Shown here: positions 11,883 to 55,717 of the stretch, in pieces | How positions within the stretch are numbered: position 1 is the first letter of the stretch | Layout: every line of letters starts with the position of its first letter | DNA from: Gammaproteobacteria bacterium | GTDB taxonomy: Bacteria; Pseudomonadota; Gammaproteobacteria; Pseudomonadales; Halieaceae | Direction: 5' to 3' | Assembly: GCA_030428835.1 (NCBI GenBank) | Contig: JAUIEP010000008.1 | Span: forward strand, 1-64,000 | DNA length: 64,000 nucleotides | Notes under the pieces: model-generated | Told to the model about the DNA's origin: nothing | Databases searched by the model: none | Seen by the model: the letters and a program-made list of their open reading frames with translations, nothing else | Position numbers and translations under genes: made by a program

Positions 11883-11981
11883 CTGTAGGGTCGAATTCAT
11901 TCGACCTGGAACGGTCCTGCATACCTGGCGGCGGTTGTATTGGTGGCCACCGTCACAGGTCGAATGAATTCGACCCTACAG
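11883..11981. repeat. REPIN-like element: inverted pair of 26-bp REP palindromes
   Basis: Two 26-bp copies of the sequence built on GGTCGAATTCATTCGACC, with CTGTAG at the outer edge, lie in inverted orientation at 11883-11908 and 11956-11981 and are perfect complements. The 47-bp middle is unique. The whole is 99 bp, almost the same length as the pair at 19409-19508. This matches the REP-doublet (REPIN) arrangement mobilised by RAYT transposases; no RAYT gene is in the window. Confidence 0.8.
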
Positions 11982-12016
11982 GAGACAAAAACCATACCGG
12001 GACCAGGGCCCCGCAC

Positions 12017-12183
12017 GGGCCAAAGGCCGACAGGGGCCGAAACCCGACAGGGGCCGAAACCCCACAGGGGCCGAAACCCCACTGGGGCCAAAACCCCACT
12101 GGGGCCAAAACCCCACAGGGGGCCAAAGGCCGACAGGGGCCGAAACCCCACAGGGGCCAAAACCCCACAGGGGCCAAAACCAG
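12017..12183 (+). repeat. 17-bp tandem array (about 10 units) in the leader of the SDR operon
   Basis: Units read GGGGCC(G/A)AAACCCCAC(A/T); ten units, of which the first is 16 bp, one is 18 bp and the last is truncated. Each holds GGGG and CCCC that can pair as a small hairpin. Because 17 is not a multiple of three the array cycles through frames, so it is not coding. Its end lies 20 bp from the SDR start codon. Confidence 0.85.
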
Positions 12184-12203
12184 ATAGACGGAGTATCTGA
12201 ACC

Positions 12204-12866
12204 ATGCTTGAAAATCGCAGAATCGTCATCACGGGCGCGGCCGGCGGGCTCGGCCGCACCGTGTGCGAAGTCGCCGAATCACTCGGCGCCGCCACCGTCC
12301 GCCTCGACATCGCCTTCAAGGAGCCGGGCGACAACTGCCACGAAGTCGACCTGACCGACCGTGCGGCGCTCGCGGCGGTGCTGGAGGCCGTGGGCGACTA
12401 CGACGGCGTGTTCAATATCGCCGGCGGCTTCGCCATGGGCAGTGACACCTGGGAGTCCGACGACGAGGACTGGGACCGTATGTTCAACCTGAACGTGAAC
12501 ACGCTGCGGACGGTGCTGAAGGTGACGGTACCGCATCTCCTGGCGCGCGGCCGCGGCAGTATTGTCAATGTCGGCGCCTACGGCGCGCGCGAGGGGCAGG
12601 CCGCGATGTCGGCGTACTGCGCCTCGAAGAGCGTGGTCATGCGCCTCACCGAGAGCCTCGCCAACGAGGTGCGCGAGCGCGGCGTCAATGTCAACGCGGT
12701 GCTGCCCACGGTGATCGATACGCCGCTCAACCGTCGCGACATGCCGGATGTGGATCCCGCCCAGTGGGTGGCGCCCGCCGATCTCGCCAACGTGATCTGC
12801 TTCCTCGCCTCTGAGTCCGCGCGCGCGGTGCACGGAGCGCTGGTGCCGGTGCGCGGCCTGTCCTGA
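12204..12866 (+). CDS. Short-chain dehydrogenase/reductase
   Basis: 220 residues. The Rossmann start VITGAAGGLGR (TGxxxGxG), the NIAG motif (FNIAGGFAMG), and the active-site Tyr/Lys in SAYCASK, with VNVGAYGA before them in the place of the catalytic Ser region, all fit classical SDRs, although the Ser position reads Gly/Ala and should be checked by alignment. NAD(P)-dependent oxidation or reduction of an alcohol/ketone is expected. GGAG precedes ATG 12204. The DUF2889 gene follows after 3 bp, so the two form an operon. The tandem array lies in the leader. Confidence 0.88.
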   Translation: MLENRRIVITGAAGGLGRTVCEVAESLGAATVRLDIAFKEPGDNCHEVDLTDRAALAAVLEAVGDYDGVFNIAGGFAMGSDTWESDDEDWDRMFNLNVNTLRTVLKVTVPHLLARGRGSIVNVGAYGAREGQAAMSAYCASKSVVMRLTESLANEVRERGVNVNAVLPTVIDTPLNRRDMPDVDPAQWVAPADLANVICFLASESARAVHGALVPVRGLS

Positions 12867-13871: not shown

Positions 13872-13936
13872 TGGCAGGCCCATAAGAGAAAGGTGAGCCG
13901 CGTGGTCGCGGGCTGCGGTCAACCGCGCGCACAGTT

Positions 13937-13960
13937 GCAGGGTCGAATTCATTCGACCTG
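13937..13960. repeat. Single REP-like palindrome
   Basis: One copy of the GGTCGAATTCATTCGACC palindrome with its CAG/CTG flanks, in the 159-bp gap between the DUF2889 and DUF3604 genes. No inverted partner is seen within 200 bp, so this is a singlet rather than a doublet. Confidence 0.75.
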
Positions 13961-14066
13961 TAATACACGCCCGCCATGCACAACAGTGCCATTGAGAACG
14001 ACAGTGCGGCGGCGAAAATGAAACCCCACGATGGTTCCCGTCGCCGCCAACACGTTGCCAAAGCCT

Positions 14067-19408: not shown

Positions 19409-19508
19409 CTGTAGGGTCGAATTCATTCGACCTGGAACCCATGTCTCAATTACCACATAGGTGCGTATCGAGCGCTCCGTGACCGGTCGAATGAATTCGA
19501 CCCTACAG
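19409..19508. repeat. Second REPIN-like inverted REP pair
   Basis: REP copies at 19409-19434 and 19483-19508 in inverted orientation, complementary except for one base, 100 bp overall. Outer edges read CTGTAG/CTACAG, as in the pair at 11883-11981. The middle differs except near the right arm, where both have CCGT(C/G)A followed by the palindrome. It sits between the alcohol dehydrogenase start and the 3' end of the kinase gene. Confidence 0.8.
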
Positions 19509-19525
19509 GTAGCGCGTGCGCCGCG

Positions 19526-22195: not shown

Positions 22196-22510
22196 GTTTT
22201 TGGTCTCCGGTGGGGGTGGGGATAGCTTACTGGTGCGGCGGTTGTCTTGCATCCCTGCGGTGCCTGGTCTTGCTCGCAGGCCCGTTGGGAGCGGAGCAGG
22301 AGTACCTACCGGCTACCGGGGACCGCCAAAAAGCGTACATCCCTGTACAGGCTCGGCGGGCGACGTCCTGTCGCCCGACGCCCCCGGTAGCCGGTAGGTA
22401 CCCCTGCTCCTTACTCCGGTACTGCACTCCCCATCGTTGGCTTTGCCTGCGCTTGCCGCTTTGAGTTGTCATCGTCGACAATGCTCGAACGAACTGATGG
22501 AGAGCTATTG
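22196..22510. other. Divergent intergenic region with a structured repeat
   Basis: 315 bp between the dehydrogenase (minus) and a kinase (plus). Its central third is the three-stem element at 22293-22410. I see no convincing coding frame. The plus-strand gene has GGAGAGC just before its start. Promoters must be in the ~95 bp on either side of the repeat, but no clear -35/-10 pair stands out. Confidence 0.7.
22293..22410. repeat. Three-stem structured repeat, copy A
   Basis: Outer stem of about 29 bp: left arm 22293-22321 (starts GGAGCAGGAGTACC) and right arm 22382-22410, one mismatch. Inside: ACCGCCAAAAAGC, hairpin 1 GTACATCCCTGTAC (22335-22348), linker AGGCTCGGC, hairpin 2 GGGCGACGTCCTGTCGCCC (22358-22376), then GACG. 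The same interior recurs at 55594-55658 with a G-C to T-A exchange closing hairpin 2, while the outer arms are unrelated in sequence. Confidence 0.85.
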
Positions 22511-26441: not shown

Positions 26442-26590
26442 GGTGTGCTCCGTGGGGCGGTGGCGTAGGGGGCGCGCATTTAAGCACACTTCACCCAGGT
26501 TTTCGCCGGTTTCATCGACTAACTATAGACGGGAATTCACGCTCAGCCGATTTCCGATACGCGATGCGGATCGGGTAATGCCTTCTCGCA

Positions 26591-26698
26591 CCTGGACAAA
26601 GTGCCTCCTGACAGGAACCGCCAATTCGCCATCCATGGCGGCTGCGCTGAGGCCATCCATGGCCTCAGAGCTTCCTGTCAGGAGGCACTTTGTCCAGG
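26591..26698. repeat. Three-stem structured repeat, copy B
   Basis: Perfect 27-bp outer stem, arms 26591-26617 (starting CCTGGACAAAGTGCC) and 26672-26698. Interior begins with CCGCCAATT, then hairpin CGCCATCCATGGCG (26627-26640), linker GCTGCG, and a hairpin of the form CTGAGGCCAT-CC-ATGGCCTCAG (26647-26668). Architecture and the CCGCCAA strand match copies A (22293) and C (55571), but every stem sequence differs. Confidence 0.85.
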
Positions 26699-26786
26699 CG
26701 CTTACATGGGAGTAGTTCCAGCAAAATCGCTCTGCGGGAGAATTCGTGAACATCAGTTGTAGGGACTTGCAGAATAGACTAGAGCA

Positions 26787-26995
26787 GAGCTGCCAGTGGC
26801 GGAGCGTGGATTGGCCGGGGCTTTGAGCCGGCCGAGCGGAGGGTGATTTTGAGGGGTTGGAGGGCCATGGATGGCCCGGAAAGCCTCGTCGCGCAGGACG
26901 CGCGTCGAGGCGGGCCCCTCAAAATCACCCGCAGCGAGGGCAGCCGCAGGCCCGGCGAACGTCCCGGCCAATCCACGCTCCGCCACTGGCAGCTC
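26787..26995. repeat. Large nested inverted-repeat element
   Basis: Outer arms of 33 bp, perfectly complementary, at 26787-26819 and 26963-26995 (start GAGCTGCCAGTGGCGG). A second stem of 16 bp, GGGTGATTTTGAGGGG, at 26841-26856 pairs with 26915-26930. Inside it are hairpin GGGCCATGGATGGCCC (26862-26877) and an imperfect hairpin 26883-26911 starting GCCTCG. Read on the minus strand the hairpin loops carry GTCCTG and CATCCATG, as in the smaller elements, but in reverse order. Confidence 0.8.
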
Positions 26996-55518: not shown

Positions 55519-55570
55519 TATTTTCCTGATTGCGTTTCTGCGATGTGTGAAAACGCGCGTGCCGCTCGGA

Positions 55571-55680
55571 GCATGGCTGTATGCCTGTGTCCGGGACCGC
55601 CAAAAAGCGTACATCCCTGTACAGGCTCGGCTGGCGACGTCCTGTCGCCAGACGCCCCGGCCACAGGCATACAGCCATGC
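55571..55680. repeat. Three-stem structured repeat, copy C
   Basis: Outer stem arms 55571-55589 (GCATGGCTGTATGCCTGTG) and 55662-55680, perfect over 19 bp. Interior: ACCGCCAAAAAGC, hairpin 1 GTACATCCCTGTAC (55609-55622), linker AGGCTCGGC, hairpin 2 TGGCGACGTCCTGTCGCCA (55632-55650), then GACGCCCCGG. It is almost identical to copy A except for the covarying T-A closing pair of hairpin 2 and a completely different outer stem. Confidence 0.85.
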
Positions 55681-55717
55681 CCCTGAACCTCGGCGCAGGT
55701 AATCAGGGCCGGACCCG

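Follow-up and report, generated by a model that had tools for sequence, protein, structure and literature searches.

Results

A palindromic repeat in the window

The stretch of DNA analyzed, 64,000 nucleotides of a Halieaceae contig that is referred to as the window, carries two copies of a palindromic repeat: copy A at nt 22293–22410 (118 nt) and copy C at nt 55568–55683 (116 nt). The earlier note on this DNA had placed both copies correctly and had called their interiors nearly identical; the identity between nt 22319–22384 and nt 55593–55658 is 97%. It was also right that each copy has a self-complementary outer stem. Complementarity between the two arms is 97% over 29 nt in copy A (nt 22293–22321 and 22382–22410) and 93% over 28 nt in copy C (nt 55568–55595 and 55656–55683). 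Similarly, the base-pair exchange described there is present, G22358 and C22376 of copy A being T and A in copy C; in an alignment of 30 copies read on the minus strand, 27 have U-A at this pair and 3 have G-C. A further copy had been mentioned without coordinates, and related structures were found at nt 26588–26701 on the minus strand and nt 26834–26937 on the plus strand. The parts are listed below in the sense of the predicted RNA, with scores from the covariance model R1 and the Rfam family TwoAYGGAY (RF01731).

22293–22410, minus (predicted RNA strand): copy A, whole element, 118 nt; R1 131.9 bits; alignment A1
22382–22410, minus: stalk 5′ arm, 29 nt; 97% complementary inverted repeat, 28 Watson-Crick pairs and 1 G.U of 29
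22293–22321, minus: stalk 3′ arm, 29 nt; inverted repeat, 28 Watson-Crick pairs and 1 G.U of 29
22358–22376, minus: hairpin 1, loop AGGAC, holding the G22358/C22376 exchange; fold and pair counts
22366–22368, minus: GGA of hairpin 1, predicted CsrA site 1, in CAGGACG, a CsrB-type repeat (excerpts of PMC7652899); 77/77 copies
22334–22349, minus: hairpin 2, UGUACA-GGGA-UGUACG; fold and pair counts
22340–22342, minus: GGA of hairpin 2, predicted CsrA site 2; GUACAGGGAUGU matches the SELEX consensus RUACARGGAUGU (excerpts of PMC7652899); 75/77 copies
22325–22357, minus: hairpin 2 with its lower stem (22352–22357 with 22325–22330); two G.U pairs, in 29/30 and 28/30 copies
55568–55683, minus: copy C, 116 nt, divergent arms; R1 113.7 bits; RF01731 32.0 bits, under the cut-off
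26588–26701, minus: related element (TwoAYGGAY), left member of an outward-facing pair; RF01731 46.3 bits at 26581–26708; R1 72.3 bits
26834–26937, plus: related element (TwoAYGGAY), right member of the pair; RF01731 43.7 bits; arms 26787–26833 and 26949–26995 around it

Both copies are predicted to fold stably. The folding z-score of copy A is −8.7 on plus and −11.9 on minus, that of copy C −9.1 on plus and −9.4 on minus, and on either strand of either copy none of 200 shuffles folds as well. The minus strand, a matter absent from the earlier note, is the better supported one for both: R1 gives copy A 131.9 bits on minus versus 54.4 on plus, and copy C 113.7 versus 41.3.

Other repeats lie in the same window. 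Tandem 17-nt repeats of the GGGCCGAAACCCCACAG type occupy about nt 12000–12181, within nt 11883–12215. A palindromic motif around GTCGAATTCATTCGAC occurs as inverted copies beside them and again at nt 13935–13964 and 19409–19509. The outward-facing TwoAYGGAY pair at nt 26581–26995 lies between divergent genes; its right member has extra 47-nt inverted arms, of which several near copies exist elsewhere in the genome (98% identity, contig C262).

A repeat family with covarying stalks

A blastn search with copy A gave 54 matches in its own genome (G000), self-matches of the arms included. Thirty own-genome copies returned as loci were aligned with MAFFT (alignment A1), from which R1 was built. 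R1 finds at least 31 places at 98 bits or more, plus weaker ones, with 150 of 4328 candidates scored; the count is a lower bound, and the window's copy at nt 26588–26701 is missing from it. The set of three copies first proposed is therefore too small, and the result that was to speak against a family, a genome search returning these copies alone, did not occur. Two copies, L028 and L030, are longer by a shared GC-rich segment of 15 nt that follows hairpin 2.

Between the 30 copies the interior is 95% identical, while arm differences sit mainly in mid-arm (positions 11–24, 59%). The arm ends GGAG..ATG and CAT..CTCC are common to most copies, copy C being the outlier. The outer stems, called unrelated in the earlier note, are thus not wholly so. 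The stalk is highly variable in sequence, yet 99% of its cells pair, and 97.6% of all 1469 cells of the stated structure do so. Changes on both sides occurred in 23 of 49 pairs versus 11.9 in shuffles (none of 500 reaching 23); cells so changed number 136 versus 28.5 (again 0 of 500), and drop to 15–27 when partners are slid by 1–3 columns. Nineteen of the 23 pairs belong to the stalk, 2 to hairpin 1 and 2 to the upper stem of hairpin 2. The many copies and the covariation that the earlier note had hoped for were thus obtained for these helices and not for the lower stem of hairpin 2, where no pair changed on both sides in the 30-copy alignment. Three G.U pairs of the inner helices are kept in 28–30 of the 30 copies.

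Stalks of nearest-neighbor copies were compared in 26 pairs from G000 and 30 pairs from the congener G016 (41 of the 46 rows of alignment A3). Altered pairs went from Watson-Crick to Watson-Crick in 93 of 128 cases in G000 (54 transversion-type, 39 transition-type) and in 137 of 177 in G016 (70 and 67). A stepwise path through G.U favors transitions; because most alterations are full swaps with transversions about as frequent as transitions, they fit a change of both arms in one event, as in template switching, in a comparison drawn between neighbors rather than against a phylogenetic null. Template switching creates and maintains hairpin stems, according to excerpts of PMC8794818, and such mutation combined with selection for pairing would fit the turnover of the stalk.

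Strand bias of the stalk

By symmetry, an unselected DNA palindrome should accumulate G.U and A.C departures equally, so that an excess of G.U points to a folded single strand on the GGA side. In A1, the stalk departures on the GGA strand are 34 G.U versus 1 A.C, representing 12 and 1 distinct column types, with 12 of the 34 coming from one column and hence not independent. A set of 168 de-duplicated copies from 20 genomes (58 from G016, 46 from G000, 20 from G023 and 44 from others) gives 161 G.U versus 15 A.C, and an alignment-free count of the same set gives 140 versus 11. The excess is found in each genome group (51:4 in G000, 27:5 in G016, 29:0 in G023, 54:6 in the others) and in all four gene contexts (40:0 for −−, 42:9 for ++, 34:6 for −+, 33:0 for +−). 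Among 22 class-level copies, one wrong-strand row having been dropped, the ratio of 9 to 4 is not significant (p = 0.27). The bias most likely reflects folding of the GGA-side strand as a single strand, most simply as RNA; the folded strand could be DNA instead.

GGA loops

On the minus or RNA strand of 77 diverse copies from 19 genomes, GGA is present in every loop 1 (77/77) and in all but two of the second loops (75/77), counts that are biased towards GGA by recruitment of the copies with a loop-aware model. They were taken from alignment A6 after two wrong-strand rows, which are kept in model R2, were dropped. In the 168-copy set, two CA(N)GGANG motifs are present on the RNA strand of 163 copies and on the opposite strand of none, and 18 exact fits to RUACARGGAUGU were counted. 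Excerpts of PMC7652899 give this sequence as the CsrA SELEX consensus and CAGGA(U/A/C)G as the repeats of CsrB, and state that CsrA bridges sites 10–63 nt apart. The two GGAs are separated by a median of 23 nt (168 copies); this spacing falls within that range, so one CsrA dimer could bridge both loops. The repeat therefore has what a CsrA/RsmA-binding RNA is expected to have, ANGGA-type hairpin loops and two sites at bridging distance. Counting against this reading, the SELEX hairpins in the same excerpts have mostly no more than 4 contiguous pairs and hairpin 1 has 7–8. A CsrA gene is present in 53 of 57 genomes, and in 47 of the 47 of good quality; being near universal, its presence in carriers tells little.

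Comparison with Rfam

No named family had been known to the earlier note. Comparison with Rfam yields a close relative, TwoAYGGAY (RF01731, clan CL00106), with a gathering cut-off of 43 bits. Copy A has no match at E≤1, and copy C reaches 32.0 bits. The neighbors in the window at nt 26581–26708 (46.3 bits) and nt 26834–26937 (43.7 bits) pass, as do 10 of 32 own-genome matches (150 of 200 candidates scored), including two sisters of copy A assigned by position, L002 (46.3 bits) and L024 (43.0 bits). Run on element loci, RF01731 passes 1 of 20 in G000, with 3 more under the cut-off at E≤0.5, 0 of 20 in G016 and 0 of 19 at class level. At its cut-off Rfam missed most of the tested copies. Two GGA hairpin loops on a basal stem, as in TwoAYGGAY, are seen both in the loop counts above and in the minus-strand folds of copies A and C. 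Weak matches to RsmY (23.7 bits) and plant microRNAs were discarded as far under the cut-off. Locus L002 also holds a ZMP/ZTP riboswitch (nt 1703–1788, plus, 68.9 bits) near its element copy at nt 1501–1619.

Distribution and mobility

At E≤0.01, R1 has matches in 20 of 57 genomes, the own genome included, and copies per genome range from 0 to 64 within one genus. G013 has none at this threshold, though a neighboring gene there is 85% identical to the window; G016 has 66 at E≤0.001, and the copy-rich G030 and G033 have 19 and 24. With 13 candidates scored per genome, model R2 finds the repeat in 51 of 281 genomes of the class, the own genome included, and in 46 of 218 genera. The element gave 0 matches in 80 named loci, and no match was obtained in plasmids or phages (blastn with copy A) or in viral contigs (one exact pattern).

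Outer inverted ends of about 24 nt are recognizable in 36 of the 58 copies of G016, spanning exactly 184 bp in 23 and 183–224 bp in the rest. An 8-bp target duplication with at least 6 of 8 positions matching flanks 19 of the 36, all eight matching in 4; 1000 shuffles give a mean of 0.85 and a maximum of 5. The combination of terminal inverted repeats and target duplication that marks a MITE is therefore found in this subset of G016 (19/36) and not in the own genome. No duplication peak stood clearly above shuffles in G000, in G023 or in 16 other genomes taken together; the nearest signal in G000 was 9-mers with two mismatches, 7 versus shuffled maxima of 4 to 8. Judging from its dispersal and from G016, the repeat was presumably mobile in the own genome as well. 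A comparison with G013 for an empty site recovered no syntenic region; the one orthologous neighbor stops at a contig edge. Copies at the same gene pair in different genera (three cases) align at only 44–49% identity.

No autonomous partner was recognized at 19 orphan end loci of G016 when the partner end was sought within 2.9 kb; the scan, which addressed the ends themselves, brought out no more than two short relics, 91 and 96 bp long. These units, L311 and L321, have similar inverted ends and duplications matching at 6/8 and 7/8, lack the CsrA module, and are probably internal-deletion relics. Five G016 matches (L224–L228) are 132–156 nt long instead of 118. Mobilization by RAYT was rejected, with 0 Y1_Tnp matches in the copy-rich G016, G030 and G033 and 1 in G000; the Y1 transposase expected in carriers of REPIN/RAYT systems was thus not found in the three copy-rich genomes.

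The 36 end-bearing copies of G016 allow two stems of the same elements to be compared. The transposon-end stem has 43 G.U, 57 A.C and 122 other departures in 864 cells, 20.7% of its positions being unpaired. In the stalk, 0.7% are unpaired by the model-fitted alignment and 3.9% by the alignment-free count, with 11 G.U and 2 A.C; non-Watson-Crick cells amount to 18 of 1036 (fitted) and 50 of 864 (alignment-free). The biases of the two stems differ (Fisher p = 0.0065). Since the outer stem has decayed while the stalk stays paired, we infer that upkeep of the stalk continued once the element had inserted, with the outer stem as an imperfect control whose arms lie farther apart and may be reached less by template switching.

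Two explanations had been proposed in the earlier note, a structured RNA and a mobile element that depends on hairpins. Both receive support, the mobile one from the inverted ends and 8-bp duplications of G016. Insertion into pre-existing palindromes, the further part of that proposal, is unsupported; family members have conserved stalk ends in common, and the arms are therefore read as part of the element.

Gene context

With genes called by a simple gene finder made for the analysis, 49 of the 168 copies lie in divergent, 43 in sense tandem, 40 in antisense tandem and 29 in convergent contexts, 7 being unassigned. Overlap with a called gene exceeds 30 nt in nine copies and does not in the other 159. 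Tandem pairs show no orientation bias (43 ++ versus 40 −−), which argues against a simple leader role. A 5′ leader role deduced from position was also rejected: first calls had 23 of 30 downstream genes co-directional, and divergent regions are uninformative while tandem ones are balanced. In tandem pairs the median distance to the preceding stop codon is 79 nt (43 ++) and 55 nt (40 −−). Of the 46 own-genome copies, 20 lie between divergent genes and 3 between convergent ones, a skew that roughly follows the available intergenic DNA (2312 versus 392 bp in the window) and so means that transcript ends are not preferred, not that they are avoided. Sigma-70-like promoter motifs are not enriched upstream of the repeat, sites numbering 5 versus 12.8 in shuffles. 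Given no promoter enrichment and no orientation bias, some copies would need their own promoter. In the 25 nt downstream, none of 30 copies has five T in a row, and 3 have four.

Copies of G000 and G016 have one neighboring gene in common at ≥55% identity. Of 27 copy pairs no more than 600 bp apart, 26 face outward; the spacers are unrelated and 48–304 nt long. Outward-facing element pairs include L049, L053, L058, L157, L168 and L170.

Discussion

Our study suggests, with moderate confidence, a dispersed palindromic repeat resembling a mobile element, the core of which would be a two-site CsrA/RsmA-binding RNA on the minus strand, acting most likely as a decoy. This reading builds on quantities computed directly, namely copy number, structure, GGA loops, stalk covariation, single-strand bias and, in one congener, transposon-like ends with duplications. 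The copies would have spread as transposon-like DNA, for which G016 gives the direct sequence support, and their GGA strand would be transcribed. The stalk, about 29 bp of free sequence, may display a pair of short hairpins, their A(N)GGA(N) loops some 23 nt from each other, and fold the module independently of the surrounding transcript. A stalk that folds the module in any transcript would need only its pairing conserved. One CsrA dimer would clamp both loops, and copies transcribed at many loci would jointly titrate CsrA and lower its free level. The decoy role is probable and the least certain step, local action being compatible as well. A wider version is put forward tentatively: a mobile family with a CsrA-binding RNA payload across many gammaproteobacterial families, with tens of copies in some genomes, serving as a sponge set by copy number, with stalks shaped by template switching and selection such that any copy would fold by itself.

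If true, scattered repeats would buffer CsrA in these bacteria in place of a small number of dedicated decoy genes, and the copy number of the repeat would be an evolvable setting of a global regulator. The repeat is also a natural system for the pairing of a long RNA stem: its copies number in the dozens, the two arms of their stalks change together, and the transposon-end stems of the same G016 copies provide a control.

Alternatively, the repeat might be purely selfish palindromic DNA of the MITE or REP kind with no RNA role, its arms kept complementary by template switching and its GGA loops accidental or used for DNA recognition. Dispersed copies in lineage-specific numbers (66 in G016, 0 in G013) and the target duplications of G016 agree with this, as do both-arm changes in which transversions about equal transitions even between the nearest copies; template switching is reported to make and keep such stems (excerpts of PMC8794818). 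Nevertheless, template switching alone predicts no strand bias, and 161 G.U stand against 15 A.C. The transposon-end stem of the same copies, with the limits noted for this control, is neither kept paired nor biased, and 163 of 168 copies have their two CsrA-type motifs on a single strand. We consider a purely selfish repeat unlikely.

It is quite unlikely that each copy serves as a cis-regulatory leader or trailer recruiting CsrA to its host mRNA and altering translation or stability of the adjacent gene. The lack of a sense preference in tandem pairs and the single neighboring gene common to G000 and G016 copies speak against it, while the 159 copies without gene overlap, the 49 in divergent intergenic regions and the Rfam type of RF01731, Cis-reg, speak for it. 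A terminator or exonuclease barrier at transcript ends, a role proposed for REP sequences (excerpts of PMC3733652), would account for the very stable stems and for the short distances from preceding stop codons in tandem pairs. The conserved GGA loops would be superfluous for a barrier, however; the five-T run is missing from all 30 copies inspected, and the own-genome placement, following intergenic length, reveals no end preference. Such a role is thus very unlikely.

Dispersed CsrA-binding repeats were not recognized in any report found by a limited search of the open-access literature. The CsrB/CsrC and RsmX/Y/Z decoys are encoded by one or a few dedicated genes, whereas the repeat is many intergenic copies. 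It has two sites per copy and not many, with no promoter enrichment and no T-run; what it has in common with these decoys is repeated GGA hairpins matching CsrB repeats and the SELEX consensus, as given in the excerpts cited above. Like MITEs, 36 of the 58 G016 copies have inverted ends, 19 of these with 8-bp duplications, and are too short for a transposase gene, but own-genome copies are without such ends or clear duplications. REP/REPIN sequences are likewise dispersed intergenic palindromes forming inverted-repeat doublets (excerpts of PMC3116915), comparable to the outward pairs here (26/27); the repeat's structure is far longer, and no Y1 transposase was found in G016, G030 or G033, unlike systems with RAYT.

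TwoAYGGAY comes closest. It is predicted to bind CsrA (excerpts of PMC4333381), is listed as a probable RNA and not as cis-regulatory in excerpts of PMC2864571, and is typed Cis-reg by Rfam. Dispersal in dozens of copies is not mentioned in the excerpts of these two papers, whereas the repeat reaches dozens of dispersed copies in some genomes and has a long stalk that is free in sequence. Both present two GGA-loop hairpins on a basal stem, on the same strand. The repeat therefore probably works like TwoAYGGAY and is kin to it, though neither copy A nor copy C passes its cut-off.
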